From positions 124,001 to 188,000 of the forward strand of contig NZ_WRPN01000005.1 in assembly GCF_009746565.1 (NCBI RefSeq): a DNA stretch of 64,000 bases, given 5' to 3'. The notes under the pieces were generated by a model, which was given only the letters and a program-made list of their open reading frames with translations, did no database searches and was not told the origin of the DNA. Source of the stretch: Mariniflexile maritimum (GTDB lineage: Bacteria; Bacteroidota; Bacteroidia; Flavobacteriales; Flavobacteriaceae). Numbering within the stretch: position 1 is the stretch's first letter; the number at the start of each line of letters is the position of its first letter. Below, in pieces: positions 34,599-44,213 of this stretch. The translations under genes and the position numbers were made by a program.

Positions 34599-35903
34599 TT
34601 ATTGAAGTGCCTCTTTATAAACCCGTAAACAGCGTTCTCTGGCAAGCGAGTGATCAACCATGGGCGCTGGGTAGGTAAGTTCTTGAAAATCGGGTACCCA
34701 TTGGTTGATGTACCGTAAGTTTTTATCAAACTTTTCTATTTGTGTGGTGGGATTAAAAATCCTGAAATAGGGTGCTGCATCAACACCGCAACCTGCAACC
34801 CATTGCCAATTGCCCACATTACTTGCCATATCGTAATCGTGCAGTTTTTCGGCAAAATAGGCTTCGCCCCAACGCCAGTCGATAAGCAAATGTTTACATA
34901 AAAAACTGCCAACCAACATGCGCACCCGATTGTGCATAAAACCTGTTTGGTTTAGTTGGCGCATGCCCGCATCGACTAGCGGATAGCCCGTTTTGCCTTC
35001 ACACCACCGTTTGAATTCCGTTTCATTGTTTCGCCAATCAATCCGGTCGTATTTTGGTTTGAAACTTTGGGTTGCCGTTTGCGGAAAGTGCCATAAGATG
35101 TGCATAAAAAATTCACGCCAAATAAGCTCTTGCCAAAAGGTTTCATTTTTTTCGGCCACAGCTTTTTGTATCATTTTCCGAATACTTACCGTGCCAAAGC
35201 GTAAATGGGGGCCAAGTTTTGAGGTGCTATCCTGTGCTGGAAAATTACGCGTGGTTTCGTAGTTTTGGATGAGCGATGCATCTACTTTATAGTCTTTAAT
35301 AGGTTGATTGGAACGTGAAAAACCAATGTCCGATAGTGTTAAATTTGGTAAATGTGTGTTTTTAACCAGCGTGCTTAAACAAGCCGAAACGTTATAATGT
35401 TGTAAAGAAATTGTTTTAAAACGGGCTTTCCAAGCTTTCATGTAGGGTGTATAAACCACATAGGGCGTGGCATCGGACTTTAAAATGTCGTCTTTTTCAA
35501 AAATTACTTGGTCTTTAAAGGTGTTAAAGTTGATTTGATGTGTTTGTAATAAAGATGCAATTTGTGCATCGCGGTTTTTCGCGTACGGTTCATAATCGTG
35601 GTTTGTGTAAACCGTGTTTATGGTGTGGCTTTCTACAAGTTTTTTGAATATATCTAACGGTTTACCTTGATAGAGTGCGATACTACTGCCATGTTCCTCT
35701 TCTAGTATATGGCGCATGTTTTGCAAGGTTTCAAAAATAAACGTTACGCGCGCATCGTTTTTTGGAAGTTTATCCAGAATGTCTGTATCAAAAATAAAAA
35801 TGGGCATTACGGGATACTTGCCTATTAGTGCTTCATAAAAACCATGGTTGTCGTCCAATCTTAAATCGCGCCGAAACCAAAATATGTTAATAGTTTCCTT
35901 CAT
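34599..35903 (-). CDS. phr: Deoxyribodipyrimidine photolyase (class I CPD type)
   Basis: This flavoprotein uses blue/near-UV light to split cyclobutane pyrimidine dimers. It has 434 residues. The N-terminal Rossmann-like antenna domain starts INIFWFRRDLRLDDN. The C-terminal FAD domain shows ELIWREFFMHILW, GKTGYPLVDAGMRQL, MHNRVRMLVGSFL and LHDYDMASNVGNWQWVAG. The tryptophan-rich region is intact, so it should be active; a cryptochrome role cannot be excluded. It is the last gene of a minus-strand unit. Its ATG directly abuts the SRPBCC stop, so translation is coupled. FolE and a flavin reductase in the same cluster fit pterin and flavin supply. Confidence 0.93.
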   Translation of the reverse strand: MKETINIFWFRRDLRLDDNHGFYEALIGKYPVMPIFIFDTDILDKLPKNDARVTFIFETLQNMRHILEEEHGSSIALYQGKPLDIFKKLVESHTINTVYTNHDYEPYAKNRDAQIASLLQTHQINFNTFKDQVIFEKDDILKSDATPYVVYTPYMKAWKARFKTISLQHYNVSACLSTLVKNTHLPNLTLSDIGFSRSNQPIKDYKVDASLIQNYETTRNFPAQDSTSKLGPHLRFGTVSIRKMIQKAVAEKNETFWQELIWREFFMHILWHFPQTATQSFKPKYDRIDWRNNETEFKRWCEGKTGYPLVDAGMRQLNQTGFMHNRVRMLVGSFLCKHLLIDWRWGEAYFAEKLHDYDMASNVGNWQWVAGCGVDAAPYFRIFNPTTQIEKFDKNLRYINQWVPDFQELTYPAPMVDHSLARERCLRVYKEALQ

Positions 35904-36365
35904 TTAGTATTTGCCAAAGAGTTGCTCCAGTTTTTGGGTTCGGTAATTGAAAATTTCCTCCAGTTTTGGCTTTACTAACATAGGGTGAACCAACTGGCCC
36001 AAAATGCCGAAAGGTAATTTGTAATCGATAATGTCTTCCATTTCAATGCCGCCATCAATTTCTTTTATAAAATGTTTGTGATGCCAAAGTGCATAAGGGC
36101 CAAAACGTTGTTCGTCAACAAAATACTGTTTATCGACCACGTGAGTAATTTCGGTAACCCATTTGGTTTTTATACCCAAAACCGGCGTTACGATATATTG
36201 AATAATTTGTCCTGCAAACATGGGTCTTTCAGCACCCGAAAGGATGTGGAACCCCATATATTCTGGCGTGATGGTTTTTAGGTTTTTCGGGTCTGATAGA
36301 AAATCCCAGGCCTGTTGTTGCGTTATTGGTAAATTCTGCTTTTTGTGTAAGGTATAGAGTCTCAT
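35904..36365 (-). CDS. SRPBCC family protein
   Basis: This 153-residue START-like (Bet v 1 fold) protein starts MRLYTLHKKQNLPITQQQAWDFLSDPKNLKTITPEYMGFHI. The family forms a deep hydrophobic ligand pocket. DFLSDPKNLKTITPEYMGF and the C-terminal YRTQKLEQLFGKY are hallmarks of the group commonly found beside photolyases and TspO. The ligand is unknown. The gene fits with no gap between tspO and phr, so these three are co-translated. Confidence 0.85.
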   Translation of the reverse strand: MRLYTLHKKQNLPITQQQAWDFLSDPKNLKTITPEYMGFHILSGAERPMFAGQIIQYIVTPVLGIKTKWVTEITHVVDKQYFVDEQRFGPYALWHHKHFIKEIDGGIEMEDIIDYKLPFGILGQLVHPMLVKPKLEEIFNYRTQKLEQLFGKY

Positions 36366-36827
36366 TTAATTATAAAGTAAAACGTAAAGATTGAGCGATG
36401 TAGCAATGCACAACCATAAAAAATAAGGAATAATTAAAAGTGACTTTAATCCTTGTTGCCTTCTGTAATCGTATAAAAAGATGGTTACGACGCTAGTTAA
36501 CGCAAGAATTACAATAAGTCCTAAACCCACTAAGTGTTGGTTGAAAAAAATAAAGTTCCAAATAACATTTAAGATAAATTGTATGGTAAATAGAATTTTT
36601 ACCCTTGTGTTTGGCAATGCTAAATACAAATAGGCCATGTAGAATGAAAAACACAGCATGATGGTGTTCCAAGCAGCTCCAAAGACCCAACCCGGTGGCG
36701 TCCATGGGGCTTTATTGAGGTTTAAGTACCAATTTGATTGTGGCCCGTTATTCATTAACAAATAGCCCAAGCCCAAAGCACCAAAATTGATGATTAAAAA
36801 GAGTAGGAGTGTTTTTGTAAACTTCAT
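36366..36827 (-). CDS. tspO: TspO/MBR family membrane protein
   Basis: This is a five-helix outer- or inner-membrane translocator-type protein of 153 residues that binds tetrapyrroles; in photosynthetic bacteria it tunes light- and oxygen-dependent genes. NKAPWTPPGWVFGAAWNTIMLCFSFYM is the family signature, followed by FILNVIWNFIFFNQHL and a C-terminal WLCIATSLNLYVLLYN. The start ATG overlaps the upstream small gene's stop (ATGA). Its place between photolyase and glutathione peroxidase genes suggests a role in photo-oxidative stress, which is inference. Confidence 0.93.
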   Translation of the reverse strand: MKFTKTLLLFLIINFGALGLGYLLMNNGPQSNWYLNLNKAPWTPPGWVFGAAWNTIMLCFSFYMAYLYLALPNTRVKILFTIQFILNVIWNFIFFNQHLVGLGLIVILALTSVVTIFLYDYRRQQGLKSLLIIPYFLWLCIATSLNLYVLLYN

Positions 36828-36997: not shown

Positions 36998-37540
36998 TTA
37001 TTTTATGTGGTTTGTAATTTGATCGCTTAGCGGATTGGTTATGGAATAGTAATAATCCACCAAATGCCCTTGACCATCTACCAAATATTTTTGAAAGTTC
37101 CATTTTACGGTCGAACTGGAACTGCCGTTTTTTTCTTTTTGGGTTAACCATTGATACAGAGGGTGTTGGTTGTTGCCCTTTACATCAATTTTCTCGGTCA
37201 TTAAAAACGTAACGCCATAGTTTTGCTGACAAAAAGTTTGTATTTCCTTAACCGTTCCGGGTTCTTGGCCACCAAATTGGTTACAGGGCAATCCTATCAC
37301 CATAAGTTTGTCCTTGTGGGTATCGTACAGGTTTTGTAAATCTTCGTATTGTTTTGTAAAACCGCATTTTGATGCCGTGTTTACAAATAGAATATGTTTT
37401 CCTTTTAAGGTGGACAAATCGATGGGTTTTCCTTCTAAACTATTAATTTTTATGGCGTAAATAGATTCGGAAGGGTTTGTTTGCGCCACCGATTTTGAGA
37501 ATATTGAGAACATAATACTTAATATTAGTAGTTTTTTCAT
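36998..37540 (-). CDS. Glutathione peroxidase-like (thiol peroxidase), exported
   Basis: This 180-residue thioredoxin-fold peroxidase reduces hydrogen and lipid peroxides. The peroxidatic Cys is in VNTASKCGFTKQY, the Gln/Trp active-site partners are in GLPCNQFGGQEPGT and VKWNFQKYLVD, and the resolving-type Cys lies in QTFCQQNYG. It begins with a signal peptide (MKKLLILSIMFSIFSKSVAQ), so it acts in the periplasm. It probably uses thioredoxin-like donors rather than glutathione (family knowledge). It lies in the photolyase unit, after a 103-base gap that may contain an internal promoter. Confidence 0.9.
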   Translation of the reverse strand: MKKLLILSIMFSIFSKSVAQTNPSESIYAIKINSLEGKPIDLSTLKGKHILFVNTASKCGFTKQYEDLQNLYDTHKDKLMVIGLPCNQFGGQEPGTVKEIQTFCQQNYGVTFLMTEKIDVKGNNQHPLYQWLTQKEKNGSSSSTVKWNFQKYLVDGQGHLVDYYYSITNPLSDQITNHIK

Positions 37541-37643: not shown

Positions 37644-38327
37644 TTATATTTTAAATGAAGTGATGCCACAATCCATTTGAAAAATTTGACCCGACATGGA
37701 TGCTGCGTTGCCAGATATTAAAAATACGGCCATTTCTGCAACTTCCTCCGGATTTAAGAATTTTTTAAGAGGATGCCTTTCGGAAATGGCCTCAACCATT
37801 TTATCATTTCTTAACAATTTTGAAGCAAGTTCGGTATGGGTTACCGTTGGTGCAATGGCATTGACCCGAACGGTTGGCGCCAATTCTGCACCTAACGATT
37901 TAACCAAACCTTCAACACCTGATTTTGCACTTGCTATGCTTGCGTGAAAGGGCATCCCTAATTTTGTGGCCACGGTACTAAAAAGTAAAATAGATGGATT
38001 TTCACCTTTTTTAAGGGCATCCACATATTTTTTGATGGCTTTTACCGCACCTAGTACGTTAATTTCAAAATCTTCCCTAAAATCGTCTAAGCTCAATCGG
38101 GATATAGGTTTAAGGTTGATGCTTCCCGGGCAATAAATCAAACTGTCCATACTTTCAATTTCGGGTAGTTCATCCGTTAAAATATCACAATTATAATGCG
38201 TTAAATTAGCATGTGCCCTAGTGGGTGCAGACCTGCTAATGTTTATAACCTTGTGCGTGTTCAATACGCTGTTAACAATAGCATTGCCAATACCTTTGCT
38301 GCCACCAATAATTACTATTGTTCTCAT
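37644..38327 (-). CDS. SDR family oxidoreductase
   Basis: This 227-residue short-chain dehydrogenase/reductase starts MRTIVIIGGSKGIGNAIVNS with the nucleotide motif GGSKGIG. The family's catalytic Ser is in LLFSTVATKLGMPFHAS; at the usual YxxxK site the sequence reads HASIASAKSG, so the catalytic Tyr is replaced by His/Ser and only the Lys remains. That makes the activity uncertain. I used the ATG at 38327; the next gene stops 4 bases upstream. Its position directly after folE suggests a pterin-type substrate, as in known folE-linked SDR pairs, but this is inference. Confidence 0.8.
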   Translation of the reverse strand: MRTIVIIGGSKGIGNAIVNSVLNTHKVINISRSAPTRAHANLTHYNCDILTDELPEIESMDSLIYCPGSINLKPISRLSLDDFREDFEINVLGAVKAIKKYVDALKKGENPSILLFSTVATKLGMPFHASIASAKSGVEGLVKSLGAELAPTVRVNAIAPTVTHTELASKLLRNDKMVEAISERHPLKKFLNPEEVAEMAVFLISGNAASMSGQIFQMDCGITSFKI

Positions 38328-38331
38328 TGTT

Positions 38332-38562
38332 TTAAAGATTTGCAATTAGGTGTTTGCCGTTTAGTCGTTTTTCAACCTTGCGTTTAATGGCTGTTAAACG
38401 TTTCATTATATCCATGAGTTGTTCGTCTTTTTTTCGTTTGTATAGTTCATTTAAACCTAAAATCAACGATTTTGCTTTTCTTGAAATTTCAATGCGATCG
38501 CTTGTAGAGAGCGATTTCAGTTTTTGTTGTTCAAAAGCGAGGGCTTCGTCTATAATATCCAT
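38332..38562 (-). CDS. Small helical protein of unknown function
   Basis: This 76-residue, strongly charged helical protein starts MDIIDEALAFEQQKLKSLST and contains LNELYKRKKDEQLMDIMKRL. It has no cysteines, signal peptide or membrane segment. It lies 4 bases from folE upstream and 4 bases from the SDR downstream, so it is surely co-transcribed. I do not recognise the family; a small coiled-coil partner of one of its neighbours is possible. Confidence 0.65.
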   Translation of the reverse strand: MDIIDEALAFEQQKLKSLSTSDRIEISRKAKSLILGLNELYKRKKDEQLMDIMKRLTAIKRKVEKRLNGKHLIANL

Positions 38563-38566
38563 GGAA

Positions 38567-39268
38567 TTAGTCTTTTAGATAATTTTGTAATTCTGCAATT
38601 TTTTCGGGAGTGTTGAATTTCCCGCCGTAATAACACGTAACGGTTGCCGATGTTTCATCTTTAATGCCTCTTGATGACACGCATAAATGTTTGGCATCAA
38701 TAATAACCGCTACATCTTCCGTACCTAAAATATGTTTTAAGTCTTCAGCTATTTGATTGGTTAAACGTTCCTGTACTTGCGGACGCTTGGCATAGTATTG
38801 AACGATTCGGTTTAATTTTGATAAGCCAATAACTTTTCCAGAAGAAATATACGCCACATGCGCCTTACCGATAATGGGCACAAAATGATGCTCGCAATTG
38901 GAGTAGAAAGCAATGTTTTTTTCAACCAACATTTGATTGTATTGATATTTATTGTCGAACAATGCGATTTTTGGTTTGTTGGCTGGGTTTAGGCCAGAAA
39001 AAATTTCGTCAATGTACATTTTGGCAACGCGTTCGGGCGTGCCTTTTAAGGAATCATCGGTTAGGTCCAAACCCATAACGTCCATAATTTCCTCAAATAA
39101 AAGTGCGATGCGTTGTTTTTTCTCGGTATCCGAAAGTTTAAAGGCATCTTTCTTCATGGGTGTTTCCAGCCCGGTATAGAGGTGGTCGTCGCCAATATCT
39201 TCATGTGAAAATCCGTTTAGGATGTGTCCGTTTTTTTTCTTCGTTGCAATGAAAGTTTCTGTGTTCAT
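38567..39268 (-). CDS. folE: GTP cyclohydrolase I (FolE type 1)
   Basis: This enzyme converts GTP to 7,8-dihydroneopterin triphosphate, the entry to folate and other pterins. It has 233 residues with an N-terminal extension. The zinc and catalytic motifs are present: NCEHHFVPIIGKAHVAYI and the C-terminal CVSSRGIKDETSATVTCYYGG. KLNRIVQYYAKRPQVQERL follows the zinc motif. It is in the photolyase cluster rather than a folate operon; class I photolyases often carry methenyltetrahydrofolate as antenna, so a cofactor-supply role is plausible (inference). Confidence 0.95.
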   Translation of the reverse strand: MNTETFIATKKKNGHILNGFSHEDIGDDHLYTGLETPMKKDAFKLSDTEKKQRIALLFEEIMDVMGLDLTDDSLKGTPERVAKMYIDEIFSGLNPANKPKIALFDNKYQYNQMLVEKNIAFYSNCEHHFVPIIGKAHVAYISSGKVIGLSKLNRIVQYYAKRPQVQERLTNQIAEDLKHILGTEDVAVIIDAKHLCVSSRGIKDETSATVTCYYGGKFNTPEKIAELQNYLKD

Positions 39269-39322: not shown

Positions 39323-39598
39323 TTAACGTTTTGATATTGTGTTGTGCGTAATGTGTTTTTGTCGCGAACATTTAAAACGGCCATTTTCAAATGTTCGTAA
39401 TTTTTGGTGTTTTGTAGTGCGCCCTTTTACCCGCTTGCGCCACATTTTAAAGCTGTTAGGCCTCATTTCGCGGCGCATGAATTGAATGATTTGCGGTTCA
39501 TTCAAACCAAATTGAAACGTTAGGGCTTCAAACGGGGTTCTGTCTTCCCAAGCCATTTCAATAATTCGGTCCTTATCTTGGTCTGTAAAATTTACCAT
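39323..39598 (-). CDS. TIGR03643 family protein
   Basis: This 91-residue basic protein matches TIGR03643: MVNFTDQDKDRIIEMAWEDR, TPFEALTFQFGLNEPQIIQF, then MRREMRPNSFKMWRKRVKGR and a KH tail. The first 55 residues look like a helix-turn-helix, so it may contact DNA (inference). Family members are found beside photolyase and GTP cyclohydrolase genes in many marine bacteria. It overlaps the upstream gene by 7 bases. The Lys/Arg/His-rich tail (after about residue 70) is longer than usual. Confidence 0.8.
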   Translation of the reverse strand: MVNFTDQDKDRIIEMAWEDRTPFEALTFQFGLNEPQIIQFMRREMRPNSFKMWRKRVKGRTTKHQKLRTFENGRFKCSRQKHITHNTISKR

Positions 39599-40023
39599 GT
39601 GGGATGAAATTGAAATTGTGCGTCGTATTTAATTTTTTCGTCTAGCATTTTATTGAAGAACGCTTTGTTTTCCTTAAAGTTTCTGTCGTTTTTAAATTGA
39701 ATAAAGCGTCCTTGTGCATGGATGCTGCTACCGTTTGATTTATAAATAACCAACTGGTAGTAAGGAATGATCCATGTAAAATTCCTGAGTCCTTTATTTA
39801 TTCGTATTAGGATGCCAATAGGTCGCAATTCTATGTTGGCAAACGTTGTGTCTGCTAGGGTATTTACAAAGTTTTTCATGTTCATGCTTACGTTTTCAAT
39901 GTCCAATCGTTTTGAGCCGATACCTTTCATTTTGATGGCCTGAAACAATCCAAATCGTTTCCCTACCAAATCGTCTATGAGCTCGTCGTATTTTTTTTCT
40001 TTGTATGTTGTTTCTAAAACCAT
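39592..40023 (-). CDS. Protein of unknown function, first gene of photolyase unit
   Basis: This 143-residue soluble protein is predicted to be alternating strand and helix, with KGLRNFTWIIPYYQLVIYKS and HAQGRFIQFKNDRNFKENK. No signal peptide, membrane segment or cysteine is seen. The strand-rich FANIELRPIGILIRINKGLRN stretch resembles a PH-like fold, but I do not recognise the family. It is the first gene after the shared operator/promoter element at 40028-40090 and overlaps TIGR03643 by 7 bases, so it is tied to the cluster. Confidence 0.7.
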   Translation of the reverse strand: MVLETTYKEKKYDELIDDLVGKRFGLFQAIKMKGIGSKRLDIENVSMNMKNFVNTLADTTFANIELRPIGILIRINKGLRNFTWIIPYYQLVIYKSNGSSIHAQGRFIQFKNDRNFKENKAFFNKMLDEKIKYDAQFQFHPTW

Positions 40024-40027
40024 AGGC

Positions 40028-40090
40028 TAAAGATAATAAAAATTTCAAATTGTTTAACTATTTTTGCAAAAGATTAAACAAAAATTAACA
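40028..40090 (-). promoter_or_regulatory. Promoter and shared three-half-site operator of the photolyase unit
   Basis: On the plus strand, TGTTTAAC (40051-40058) and ATTAAACA (40073-40080) are inverted half-sites 14 bases apart. ATTAACA (40084-40090) repeats the second one 11 bases on. A -7-like TATCTTTA lies at 40028-40035 (minus strand), 5 bases before the first gene. The same layout stands upstream of the TetR-like gene. There is no TTG at -33, so an activator or repressor probably governs it. Confidence 0.7.
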
Positions 40091-40101
40091 AAGCAAATTT
40101 T

Positions 40102-41529
40102 TTAACCTGATGTTGCTAACCTATTAATCATGCCCCTAAAAATAAAGCCATGAAACGGTAGCACGCTGTACCAATAGAACCTTCCTGCGAGTCCGCGGGG
40201 TCTAAAGGTGGCCGTTTGTTTTAATATGCCATCTTCAATTTTAAATTCCAACCATGCTTCACCGGGTAATTTCATTTCGGCATACAACAAAAGTTTTTTT
40301 TCACTTTTATCACTAAAAATAACCCGCCAAAAATCCAGGGCATCACCGGTATTAAGTTCTGAAACGTGCGTTCGGCCACGTCTTAACCCTATACCGCCTA
40401 CCATTTTATCTAAAAGGCCTCGAATGTTCCATAAAAAGGTGCCGTAATACCAGCCGGTTTTGCCACCAATGGACCAGATTTTGTTAAGGGTTTTTGCCTC
40501 GTCATCAATTTTTTGCTCTTTGTAATCTTTAAAACAACCATATTTTGGAACGTTCACATATTTATGAAGGCTATTTTGCAGCACACCACTACTTACCATA
40601 GAATCTTTCCAACTGGAAACAATGCTGTTTTGCTCAATTTTTTCAAAAGCCAAATGCACCGCTTCGGCATAGGTAATAGGGTTTATATTTAATGTTTTAT
40701 TGATGTTGCTTGGTTTTCCTATAATTTCAACACCCATGCTATCTACTAATGAAGACGCTAGTTTATAAGAGGTTGAAGTAACAAAGTACAGCCAATAGGA
40801 CGATAATTTGGGGGTCATAACCGGCACTGTAAGGATATAGCGTTTTAATTTTCTAATGTTGGCAAACTTTAATAGCATCTGTTTGTAGGTCAGTATTTCG
40901 GGTCCGAAAACATCATACGATTTATTGAACAGCGCCGTATGGCCTTTTGCCCGTGATAGAAACAGTAAAACATCGCGAACCGCAATGGGCTGTGTTTTGG
41001 TGTTTAGCCATTTTGGGGCTATCATTACCGGTAGCTTTTCAACCAAATCGCGAATAATCTCAAACGATGAACTGCCCGAGCCCACAATAATACCTGCCTT
41101 AAAAACGGTAAGCGCGTATATTTTCGACTCTAAAAGCTGCTCAACGTTTTTTCTTGATTGTAAATGTTTTGAAAGTTCGGTCTCATTAGTGATGCCACTT
41201 AAATAGATGACCTGTTTTACAGCAGTAGTTTCTAGGTAGTTTTTGAAGTTTTTTGCGCACGAAGCTTCCAAAATCTCGAAATCCTTAGAGGTATTCGACA
41301 TGGAATGTATTAAATAGTACGCCACATCAATATCTTTGGGAATGTTATTTAAGGTTTCGGGTTTTAAAAAATCGGCCTCGACAATGGTAACATGCGCGTC
41401 TTCAAAATAATTTTTATCTGCTCTCAGGGCATCACGTACGGCACAAACCACATGGTGGCCTTCGTTAATTAAAACCGGGATTAAACGTTTGCCAATATAA
41501 CCTGTGGCACCAGTAATAAGGATTTTCAT
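40102..41529 (-). CDS. SDR-type NAD(P)-binding protein with DUF2867 domain
   Basis: This 475-residue protein has an N-terminal atypical SDR (about 1-300; MKILITGATGYIGKRLIPVL, then ADFLKPETLNNIPKDIDVAYYLIHSM and VIYLSGIT). A DUF2867 domain follows (about 320-475; WSIGGKTGWYYG, PGEAWLEF, TATFRPRGLAGRFYW). The pairing is common in marine bacteria beside photolyase genes. The N-terminal part should bind NAD(P)H or NAD; the substrate is unknown. It overlaps the upstream flavin reductase by 4 bases (ATGA), so the two are co-translated. Confidence 0.88.
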   Translation of the reverse strand: MKILITGATGYIGKRLIPVLINEGHHVVCAVRDALRADKNYFEDAHVTIVEADFLKPETLNNIPKDIDVAYYLIHSMSNTSKDFEILEASCAKNFKNYLETTAVKQVIYLSGITNETELSKHLQSRKNVEQLLESKIYALTVFKAGIIVGSGSSSFEIIRDLVEKLPVMIAPKWLNTKTQPIAVRDVLLFLSRAKGHTALFNKSYDVFGPEILTYKQMLLKFANIRKLKRYILTVPVMTPKLSSYWLYFVTSTSYKLASSLVDSMGVEIIGKPSNINKTLNINPITYAEAVHLAFEKIEQNSIVSSWKDSMVSSGVLQNSLHKYVNVPKYGCFKDYKEQKIDDEAKTLNKIWSIGGKTGWYYGTFLWNIRGLLDKMVGGIGLRRGRTHVSELNTGDALDFWRVIFSDKSEKKLLLYAEMKLPGEAWLEFKIEDGILKQTATFRPRGLAGRFYWYSVLPFHGFIFRGMINRLATSG

Positions 41530-42167
41530 TTTTTCTGGAGCGTTTCTTCCATTTTTTTTGGACGTTGGTAACCTAACCGGGTTTTTAGTTGTGGTAGTGC
41601 ATAGCCATCCAACCCATTAATGGCTGCAATGTTGGCTTTTGAAAGGTTTACAAAACCATCGGTTTCCAACAACGTGTCCTCAAGGTATAAATCTTTAATT
41701 TCTCCAACAAGCAGTATGGTGCCGTTGGCTTTAATGGGGTATTCCTCTACATATTCCATGGCCATTTGAATGGGCGAGCCGTTTACAAAAGGTGCCCAAA
41801 AATTATTTTTGTAGGTTTCCTGTAAATTTGTCACGTCAAATTCTGAAACGTTGTACTTATATTTAGCCGACGTATGGTGTGCGTCTTCAATAATGGCTTC
41901 ATGAATATGGTTGATGGTAAATAACTTGGTAGCCTTTATGTTATTGTAAGTATTTCTAATAGCGGTGGTTGGTCTTAAAAAAAAGCCAAGTAGGGCAGGG
42001 TCGGAGCCCAAGTGCGTTACCGAACTAAATACAGCCACATTTGTAATGCCCTGTGCCGATTTAGTACCAATTAAATTGGCCGATTTATACCCCGAGCAAC
42101 TATTTATTAAGTTGATTTTGTACAAATGCTCTAGCGCGTTAATCTGTTTTTGGGTAAAATGTAGCAT
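41526..42167 (-). CDS. Flavin reductase family protein
   Basis: This 213-residue FMN-binding split-barrel protein starts MLHFTQKQINALEHLYKINL, with the flavin-contacting SVTHLGSDPALLGFFLRP segment and TTAIRNTYNNIKATKLFTIN after it. These proteins reduce FMN or FAD using NAD(P)H or serve as partners of flavin-dependent enzymes. In this cluster it could supply reduced flavin to photolyase or to the neighbouring SDR (inference). It overlaps the downstream gene by ATGA and the upstream kinase-like gene by one base. Confidence 0.85.
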   Translation of the reverse strand: MLHFTQKQINALEHLYKINLINSCSGYKSANLIGTKSAQGITNVAVFSSVTHLGSDPALLGFFLRPTTAIRNTYNNIKATKLFTINHIHEAIIEDAHHTSAKYKYNVSEFDVTNLQETYKNNFWAPFVNGSPIQMAMEYVEEYPIKANGTILLVGEIKDLYLEDTLLETDGFVNLSKANIAAINGLDGYALPQLKTRLGYQRPKKMEETLQKK

Positions 42168-43477
42168 TACAAATCTTTGAAGTTATTGATTTTTATATCC
42201 TTAGCCTTTAAATCGAACATTAAATTGTAGAGCCCAAAAAAAGTACGGTTAATGTAAATGAAATGTTTTGAACCACGGTTGCCATTCATTTTTCGCAATT
42301 CGGTGTTTTTAGAATAGCGTTGTCCCAATTCGGCAATCTTTCCGAAGAATTCACTATTGGAAAAATCAAATGTTTCAACATGGAAAGGTTGTGTAAACAA
42401 GCTCAACAGCTCGTGAAACATCTCGGTAAAAAAGACGATTTCTTCCTCAGTATCATCTTCACGCAAAATTTCCAGTTCGTATAATTTCGCAACAAAGTAG
42501 CGGTGGTTTGAGATGTTTTCAGGTTTTGCCAATTCAAAATACGGCACATAAAATTCGTTTGGAATGGTTTTCATACAGCCAAAATCGAGCGCTATTAATT
42601 GGCCGTTTCCAGATACTAAAAAATTTCCGGGATGCGGATCGGCATGCACTTTTTTTAGTTTATGAATTTGAAACATGTAAAAATCCCATAATGCCTGCCC
42701 CAAGATATTGGCCGTTTCTTGGTTGTTGTTTAATGCGGTAAATTCTGAAAGGTGCTTGCCTTCCATAAAATCCATGGTGATTATTTTTTCAGAAGATAAA
42801 TCTTCATAATATTGAGGAAACAAGAGGTTAGGAATGTGTTTGCAGGCGTTGGCAATTTCCTTACTTTGTTGAACTTCCAAGATATAATTGGTTTCCTCAA
42901 TCAATTTTCCTTCAACTTCCTTAAAATATTTATCTGAGTTTTCACCTTTTATATTGAACATTTTCATGGCAATTGGCTTAACCAGAGCCAAATCGGATGC
43001 AATGCTTTGGGCAACACCGGGATATTGGATTTTTACGGCCAATTTTTTGCCATTTTTTGTGGCAAGGTGCACTTGACCAATGCTTGCGGCATTCACAGAG
43101 GTTGTGTTGAAGGTATCGTACAGCTCATTTGGCAGTTTTCCAAAATAGTTTTTGAAGGTTTTTAAAACCAAAGCGGGCGATAGTGGTGGCACCGAAAATT
43201 GCGCCAACGAAAACTTTTCAACATAAGCTTGTGGCATGATGCTTTTTTCCATGCTTAGCATTTGCGCCACTTTTAGGGCACTACCTTTAAGTTGTTTTAA
43301 ACCATCGTAAATGTCTTCCGCATTGTTTTCGTTTAGTGTCGCTCTGGCCTCATGCTCTGTTTTTGTAAGTTTATCGCCATAATATTTTAAATAGTTTACG
43401 CCTACTTTTGCACCTGTTGATACGAGTTTAGAAGCACGGTGTATTTTGGAAACAGGAATGGAATCAATGGTTTTCAT
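42167..43477 (-). CDS. AarF/ABC1/UbiB kinase-like protein
   Basis: This 436-residue atypical kinase has the Ala-rich nucleotide loop in NAASIGQVHLA and the VKIQYPG lysine. The catalytic HADPHPGNFLV and the metal motif ALDFGCMK also fit. The KxGQ motif of the family appears as KVAQMLSM, with Ala for Gly. Members act in isoprenoid lipid and quinone metabolism as ATPases. Its role in a photolyase cluster is unknown. It lies between the TetR-like gene (9 bases upstream) and the flavin reductase, which shares one base with it. Confidence 0.9.
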   Translation of the reverse strand: MKTIDSIPVSKIHRASKLVSTGAKVGVNYLKYYGDKLTKTEHEARATLNENNAEDIYDGLKQLKGSALKVAQMLSMEKSIMPQAYVEKFSLAQFSVPPLSPALVLKTFKNYFGKLPNELYDTFNTTSVNAASIGQVHLATKNGKKLAVKIQYPGVAQSIASDLALVKPIAMKMFNIKGENSDKYFKEVEGKLIEETNYILEVQQSKEIANACKHIPNLLFPQYYEDLSSEKIITMDFMEGKHLSEFTALNNNQETANILGQALWDFYMFQIHKLKKVHADPHPGNFLVSGNGQLIALDFGCMKTIPNEFYVPYFELAKPENISNHRYFVAKLYELEILREDDTEEEIVFFTEMFHELLSLFTQPFHVETFDFSNSEFFGKIAELGQRYSKNTELRKMNGNRGSKHFIYINRTFFGLYNLMFDLKAKDIKINNFKDL

Positions 43478-43486
43478 AAGTATGGT

Positions 43487-44143
43487 TTAGTTCATGTGCA
43501 TTTTTTCCTTGAAAATGAATTTCCCAAGATCGATCACACTTTTTAGCGGGGCAATGTGCAACACATCAAAACTGGTATTAACCGATTTTTCGATAAAAAT
43601 ATCCGTTTTTTCAAAGGACGCCGATGTATCGTCCATCCAAAATTTTAGGGTTAAAAGCAATTGTACCCAAGCCGATTCTTGAATTGCTTTATTTTGAAAT
43701 TTGTTGAGCTGTTCCTGTTTTAAATCTAGGGTTTCAATGTTTAAACTACTGATATACTGCGTGAAACTTTTTTTGAGTCCGGAAAGCAAGGTAAATCCTT
43801 TAAGGCTGTTTTTATAAGGGGCAAGTGCAAATAAAACATAGCTTCTGTTGGCCGTTACGTTTTCGAAAAAGGTAAAGTAAAAGCTTAACAATTTGTTTCT
43901 GGCATCAAAAGTATGGTAGTCTTCGCTGGCCTCTAAGGCTGTTAACGTGTTGTTGAAAAATGCTTTGAAAATGTGGGTTTCAACCGCTTCAAACGAACCA
44001 AAGTGCGCATAGAAGGTGGCTTCATCAAAATGGTTCGATTTTGCAAATAGATATACCGATTTAGGCTGTTCGTTGTTTTCTAGAACATAATCCATGTAAT
44101 AGGTAATGATGTCGTTTTCTGAAATAGTTTTCTTTTTTGCCAT
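43487..44143 (-). CDS. TetR-family regulator with Bacteroidota-type C-terminal domain
   Basis: This 218-residue protein begins with a TetR-type helix-turn-helix (SENDIITYYMDYVLEN, then PKSVYLFAKSNHFDEATFYAHFGSFEAVE, about 10-60), followed by an all-helical ligand domain of the TetR_C_23 type (about 75-215) ending KSVIDLGKFIFKEKMHMN. It is the first gene of the cluster and its own promoter carries the three-half-site element, so autoregulation is likely. It is the best local candidate to bind both operator copies. The ligand is unknown. Confidence 0.82.
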   Translation of the reverse strand: MAKKKTISENDIITYYMDYVLENNEQPKSVYLFAKSNHFDEATFYAHFGSFEAVETHIFKAFFNNTLTALEASEDYHTFDARNKLLSFYFTFFENVTANRSYVLFALAPYKNSLKGFTLLSGLKKSFTQYISSLNIETLDLKQEQLNKFQNKAIQESAWVQLLLTLKFWMDDTSASFEKTDIFIEKSVNTSFDVLHIAPLKSVIDLGKFIFKEKMHMN

Positions 44144-44160
44144 GATATTGCGTTATATGG

Positions 44161-44213
44161 CAAAGATACAAAATGTTTAATGTTTTTTAAAATATATTAA
44201 ACAAACATTAACG
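44161..44213 (-). promoter_or_regulatory. Promoter and shared three-half-site operator of the TetR-like unit
   Basis: TATCTTTG (minus strand, 44161-44168) is a perfect -7 box 17 bases before the ATG. TGTTTAAT (44174-44181) and ATTAAACA (44196-44203) are inverted half-sites 14 bases apart and ATTAACG (44207-44213) follows 11 bases on. The operator covers the -33 region, which lacks TTG. Confidence 0.75.

Follow-up and report, generated by a model that had tools for sequence, protein, structure and literature searches.

The window, meaning the whole stretch of 64,000 nucleotides of Mariniflexile maritimum DNA that was analysed, contains two related operators, both upstream of minus-strand genes. 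The first is a conserved inverted pair of half-sites, TGTTTAAT and ATTAAACA, separated by a 14-bp spacer (44174..44203). Beyond the pair, promoter-distal, lies a third half-site, ATTAACG (44207..44213), a direct repeat of the right half with counterparts at a minority of sites elsewhere. The three-part pattern described in a first-pass annotation, TGTTTAAT-N14-ATTAAACA-N3-ATTAACG, is present exactly at 44174-44213 on the plus strand, and the centres of its two half-site 8-mers are indeed separated by 22 bp. The distance of 11 bp given for the third half-site is correct by TTAA cores but becomes 10 bp by the ACA/ACG ends. Five bp from the inverted pair, TATCTTTG (44161..44168, minus strand) forms the -7 box of the TetR operon. 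It had been called a perfect box without a TTG, and reading the minus strand we found no TTG starting 21–25 bp upstream of it, though this absence has little meaning, as described below. The first gene behind the operator encodes a TetR-family protein (TetR_C_23; 43487..44143), followed by genes for an ABC1/UbiB-like kinase (42167..43477), a flavin reductase-like protein (41526..42167) and an NAD(P)-binding/DUF2867 protein (40102..41529), all on the minus strand.

The second operator, TGTTTAAC and ATTAAACA with a 14-bp spacer (40051..40080), is accompanied by the third half-site ATTAACA (40084..40090). The layout at 40051-40090 had been described as near-identical to the first; the three-part pattern does match with 2 mismatches, but the -7 box TATCTTTA (40028..40035, minus strand) lies 15 bp from the pair instead of 5 bp, in another register. 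Behind this operator, again on the minus strand, comes first a gene for a 143-aa protein (39592..40023) with no family match in Pfam or NCBIfam. It is followed by genes for a DUF2805/TIGR03643 protein (39323..39598), GTP cyclohydrolase I (folE; 38567..39268), a short-chain dehydrogenase (SDR; 37644..38345), a glutathione peroxidase (GPx; 36998..37540), a TspO/MBR protein (36366..36827), an SRPBCC (polyketide cyclase-like) protein (35904..36365; 23.5 bits against a cut-off of 23.4) and, at the end of the run, a DNA photolyase (34599..35903). The run from the 143-aa gene to the photolyase is presumably a single transcript.

A motif scan of the whole 3.66-Mb genome, which had been suggested as a check, found TGTTTAAY-N14-RTTAAACA exactly 3 times: at 44174, at 40051, and in the gap between a 307-codon MerR/B12-type gene and crtI. 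The MerR/B12-type gene (G000:C33:16769-17692) heads a crtI-crtB-crtZ-crtY run in which Pfam supports the phytoene synthase and lycopene cyclase; the names crtI and crtZ were assigned by reading, with Pfam returning amine oxidase for crtI and no family for crtZ. Two adjacent one-mismatch sites precede the fasciclin-domain gene of the same genome, which thus carries two operators 44 bp apart (L004 1501-1574), and a further one-mismatch site (C12:535422, L006) neighbours a gene that we did not link to the target set. A degenerate pair with 2 mismatches (L001 2436-2465) overlaps the start of the MerR/B12-type gene itself and is possibly an autoregulatory site.

The first-pass annotation had named a lack of conserved half-sites in relatives as grounds for giving up the element. 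Instead, the exact pair was found in 50 of 99 genomes, our own included, at 119 sites, compared with 3 for the reversed control. Among 30 TetR loci examined (of 44 matches), 25 carried the pair at a minimum of 14 of 16 positions, the box and the pair being 5 bp apart in 22 of the 25 and 4 bp apart in the other 3. The element is therefore a real, widely conserved DNA switch, and the sites in the genome and its relatives bear out the proposal that one operator is common to the two transcription units of the window. A protein resembling CarH, of the type encoded by the 307-codon gene, was detected in 67 of the 99 genomes (E<=1e-20) and TetR orthologues in 44. The exact pair occurred in 44 of 49 genomes with a strong CarH-like match, defined as E<=1e-55, versus 6 of the 50 others (p 7e-16), so that the counter-cases are five genomes with a strong match and no exact pair and six with the reverse. 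Within 400 bp of 50 of the 67 carH-like genes there was a pair with no more than one mismatch among its 12 fixed bases (base 4 free); such a near-perfect pair was absent within that distance from the other 17 and from 50 of 80 further carH loci. Beside carH, 14 bp was the commonest spacer in three scans (58, 32 and 51 matches versus 10, 6 and 19 for 15 bp, the counts from the scan of the 67 carH-like genes being approximate), and every other spacer from 8 to 20 bp gave at most 4 matches in each scan. These patterns make it very likely that the reader of the element is a light-sensor protein of the vitamin-B12 type, whose gene lies elsewhere in the genome. A MerR-type, CarH-like reader had been proposed from the window alone; co-occurrence, together with the co-variation described below, makes this protein the most likely reader, but not in the three-half-site form that had been envisaged.

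The CarH-like protein of our genome has a MerR winged-helix domain at its N terminus (PF13411, E 4.8e-13) and a B12-binding_2 domain, and no second B12-binding domain was recognised by Pfam. Its Wx9EH cap motif (W146, E156, H157) is shared by 93 of 100 such proteins; in an alignment of 67, W146 and E156 never vary, and H157 and H196 hardly ever do. ExHxxG, sought as [ED]xHxxG, is present in 89 of the 100. The rest of the full B12 motif ExHx2Gx41SxV/Tx22-27GG is mostly missing: among these 89 ExHxxG proteins, the only ones scored, SxV/T was found 38–44 residues on in 11 and GG 60–85 residues on in 5, and our protein has SYF and GK at the two positions. Proteins that have lost SxV/T and GG may accept cobamides with other lower ligands. 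The best PDB matches by sequence were 3whp ('probable transcriptional regulator') and 5c8d (T. thermophilus CarH), at E ~1e-13 and with identical aligned letters. The predicted structure (pLDDT 89) has the known CarH fold, its top 12 PDB matches all being full-length T. thermophilus CarH (E from 1.1e-13), with a loose full-chain fit (TM 0.48-0.56, rmsd 9-15). The NCBIfam CarH equivalog was the best family of the scan, but at 69.7 bits against a cut-off of 400. We call the protein CarH-like rather than CarH because the full B12 motif, the equivalog cut-off and tandem operator repeats were all lacking. A cobalamin adenosyltransferase family match (PF01923) above the cut-off is encoded in the same genome. 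It is possible, though we consider it unlikely, that the CarH-like binder works without B12 or without light sensing of its own, like CarA or like class II LitR with its LOV partner. The widespread loss of SxV/T and GG and the lack of a second B12-binding domain by Pfam would fit such a protein; the retention of Wx9EH and ExHxxG in most of the 100 proteins argues against it, as CarA is described as being without Wx9EH in the part of the literature consulted (PMC8156234).

To characterize the genes under control, we assembled 83 distinct exact sites from the subset for which flanks had been collected, leaving out those with <60 bp of flank and merging copies, and classed the nearest downstream gene by BLAST to genes of the window and our genome, with 10 others classed by hand from sequence. 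The nearest gene was TetR at 21 sites, crtI at 18, fasciclin at 13, the 143-aa gene or a homologue at 9, DUF2867 and adhesin-like genes at 3 each, SDR, GLPGLI and ECF sigma genes at 2 each, and carH, SRPBCC, a CrtW-like desaturase, a sugar-lactone oxidase and CIA30 at one each; 5 had no class. Pfam, run on 6 of the 10 hand-classed sites, supported sigma-70, Porph_ging (which we take to be GLPGLI), sugar-lactone oxidase and CIA30; it assigned the CrtW-like gene to fatty-acid desaturase alone and found no family for the one adhesin-like gene scanned. These adhesin-like repeat proteins, recognised by reading in three genomes (L020, L122, L130), have the operator 7–10 bp upstream. In a set of 20 carH loci, mainly divergent ones and including some with the T form of the operator described below, most had fasciclin, crtI, GPx, SRPBCC, flavin reductase, SDR or photolyase genes nearby (L154 being one exception), which supports the same gene set independently of the motif.

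The promoters of these genes fall into two registers. At 25 of 34 crtI, fasciclin, GLPGLI and CrtW-like (ketolase-like) sites, a -7 box TAnnTTT[GA] lies at offset 15, inside the pair, whereas at 32 of 34 TetR, 143-aa, DUF2867 and oxidase sites it lies at offset 34-36, 4–6 bp beyond the pair. With its box at offset 45, the operator at 40051 is one of the two out-of-register sites in the second group. The two registers are 20 bp apart, as are the TTAA cores of the paired half-sites. A TTG between -21 and -25 relative to the box was present at 6 of 24 crtI/fasciclin-type and 3 of 29 TetR/143-aa-type sites. Since generic TAnnTTTG boxes upstream of ORFs mostly lack a TTG too (39/202 have one, with 16/202 at a control distance), its absence tells little, and we discarded the missing -33 TTG as a sign of activation.

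We consider it likely that the CarH-like regulator uses the inverted pair as its operator, acting as an AdoCbl-dependent dark repressor that is relieved by light. The shared operator, the gene set and the tie to and co-variation with the CarH-like protein are apparent from sequence comparison; binding itself, AdoCbl, light and repression are what we infer. In the dark, an AdoCbl-bound oligomer of the regulator would occupy the two half-sites, two turns apart on one face of the helix. It would mask the -7 box at crtI and fasciclin, or the DNA immediately upstream of that box at TetR and the photolyase cluster, and thereby exclude RNA polymerase. Once light had broken AdoCbl, the oligomer would dissociate and the carotenoid, photolyase/folE, fasciclin and TetR-UbiB genes would be expressed. 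The gene set, the placing of sites over the -7 box or just above it, and the relatives studied so far all fit dark repression. However, the fixed spacing to the -7 box would be in keeping with an activator as well. Strict spacing is typical of activators, and it and the two discrete registers would fit a CarH-like protein that activated TetR/photolyase-type promoters in the manner of MerR and repressed solely at operators lying over the -7 box. We regard such dual action as rather improbable, a little more so than a B12-free binder, with which it would be compatible: our own 40051 site is out of register, the absence of a -33 TTG is not special to these promoters, and in the accounts consulted the CarH and LitR proteins studied repress in the dark (PMC9304148, PMC9758184).

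The operator and the CarH-like protein vary together. CarH-like clades at a greater distance have TGT-C-TAA or TGT-A-TAA as half-site, mostly with the 14-bp spacer retained, and base 4 tracks the recognition-helix residue that sits between R and W. At 80 further carH loci, all of I type, base 4 was T in 30 of the 30 with a pair. Within 500 bp, 11 of 16 K-type loci had a best site with C on both arms and 5 had none; at two of the 11, G288 and G178, a site with A on one arm scored just as high. Base 4 was A within the same distance at 22 of 30 T-type loci, and 8 had no such site. We then searched 48 whole genomes picked by residue type, most of the I/V genomes being previously known to have the T form. 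The C form was found at 14 sites in 9 of 16 K-type genomes and in none of the 32 others, the A form at 35 sites in 14 of 16 T-type genomes and in none of the 32 others, and the T form at 74 sites in 16 of 16 I/V-type genomes, 5 sites in 4 K-type genomes and 1 site in 1 T-type genome; reversed controls gave 2 for each search. Among the K-type genomes, G043 (14-bp spacer) and G045 (15-bp spacer) carry the C form at TetR promoters, and G019 has no pair upstream of its TetR gene. On a tree of 100 rows, residue and operator agreed in 75 of 76 labelled rows, the operator labels being partly hand-entered from earlier site searches; the exception was G056, with an I-type protein and a C-form site near carH. 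The residue is thus a candidate for what determines the half-site base. It is not a proven cause because only about two independent changes support it: the tree contains only 2 independent pairs of residue and operator change, and other residues also differ among the same clades, so we rejected as an over-claim that the residue-base code is proven.

One K-type genome, G255, encodes two CarH-like paralogs with different recognition-helix types (L331, L338). Two of the five T-form sites counted in K-type genomes belong to it, at distances of 0.2 and 3.8 kb from the second paralog, which is of I type, and the nearer site precedes a TetR-like start by reading; its K-type paralog has no C-form site with a 14-bp spacer, and one with a 15-bp spacer was seen by eye. 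The evidence is about evenly balanced on whether the flavobacterial proteins form a separate and diversified CarH-like branch of B12 photoreceptors that uses an inverted pair two turns apart, controls carotenoid, photolyase, fasciclin and TetR-UbiB genes in two fixed promoter registers and has undergone roughly two changes of specificity through the R-x-W residue, I/V reading T, K reading C and T reading A, without cross-reading even where two types share a genome.

The adjacent TetR-like protein had also been named as a candidate binder, and the position of the pair ~33 bp upstream of the TetR gene, kept at 25 of 30 TetR loci, would suit autoregulation. The co-occurrence across the 99 genomes led us to reject it. 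In genomes without TetR, the pair was present in 10 of 12 with a strong CarH-like match versus 5 of 43 others, and in genomes with TetR, in 34 of 37 versus 1 of 7; inside either CarH group, TetR had no effect on the presence of the pair (p 0.58 and 1.0; 99 genomes), and so adds nothing once the CarH-like protein is counted. Moreover, the pair stands at crtI or fasciclin genes in the TetR-less genomes G002, G003, G024 and G053 (E<=1e-10), and the C form at the TetR promoters of G043 and G045 matches their K-type CarH, leaving autoregulation by TetR very improbable. A chance inverted repeat in an AT-rich region can be dismissed with near certainty, as the three-part pattern at <=3 mismatches matched in 0 of 100 shuffles of the window, the reversed control gave 3 sites versus 119, and the position is kept at TetR loci.

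The operator had been proposed as a unit of three half-sites; the unit conserved in relatives is the inverted pair, and a TTAA 11 bp outside it accompanies 13 of the 83 exact sites. This is a minority, which rules out the third half-site as an essential part, but exceeds the mean of ~3.4 at offsets 12-39 and the next highest count of 9, at offset 17. A TTAA at 11 bp never occurred on both sides among the 83 sites, and none was promoter-side. By class, the third half-site was found at 7 of 21 TetR, 4 of 9 143-aa, 1 of 2 SDR and 1 of 2 GLPGLI sites and at 0 of 49 other sites, so that 11 of the 13 belong to the 30 TetR and photolyase-cluster promoters. TetR promoters alone gave 9 of 25, with the next highest count being 5, at offset 17. 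The third half-site is therefore probably a real but optional part of the operator. Beside C-form pairs at two TetR promoters (L087, L095), the upstream third half-site is still GTTAA, without a C, suggesting that it may be read unlike the other two.

Compared to known systems, the flavobacterial operator is best read as of the CarH-type kind already known, with inverted half-sites two turns apart as the new element. In the operators of T. thermophilus and B. megaterium CarH, an 11-bp direct repeat is described as occurring three or four times in tandem (PMC9304148). The flavobacterial system shares with these the MerR and cobalamin-binding domains, Wx9EH and ExHxxG, the link to carotenoid genes, TnnACA in each half-site and, at some sites, the 11-bp step. 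It differs in its mostly lost SxV/T and GG and in its inverted half-sites with a 14-bp spacer: the tandem direct-repeat operator was not found, the inverted pair being conserved and the direct repeat optional. For the ~55-bp operator of M. xanthus CarA/CarH, the same source describes inverted repeats and, alternatively, three 11-bp direct repeats plus two imperfect ones (PMC9304148); control of carotenoids is common to both systems, while sequence and spacing differ. The class II LitR proteins PplR1 and PmlR2 of Pseudomonas are reported as repressors with paired sites, and the light-induced Pseudomonas LitR set includes photolyase, folE and a short-chain dehydrogenase (PMC9758184), resembling the gene set and paired sites here. 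Unlike the flavobacterial case, the PmlR2 operator is given as TGTACA-N12-TGTACA, 24 bp compared to 30 bp, and PmlR2 serves a LOV photoreceptor (PMC9758184). As in canonical MerR operators, the dyad of the TetR-type sites lies in the promoter, ahead of the -10/-7 box. Half-sites of the MerR family are canonically about one helical turn apart, unlike the roughly two turns here.

Among the matches listed from titles and abstracts in open-access PMC, none described a CarH/LitR operator or regulon in this phylum, and those for Dokdonia light transcriptomes held nothing useful. A paper on light-induced Chryseobacterium, in the portion consulted, only speculated on such a regulator (PMC7064467). The operator yields a testable prediction of light responses across flavobacteria, and its natural variants offer ready pairs for probing a CarH-type oligomer on inverted half-sites and for light-controlled gene expression. 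Sunlit waters commonly harbour flavobacteria, which are often pigmented. If the proposal of a separate branch is true, its members would be natural light switches without cross-reading, even in one genome.

Lastly, in two other families, three loci have a sigma-70 (ECF-like) gene between carH and crtI (L150 4426-4929, L151 2015-2563, L153 1739-2239), with an operator-like pair upstream that in L153 has a 15-bp spacer. This arrangement recalls the LitR-sigma pairing in Streptomyces.
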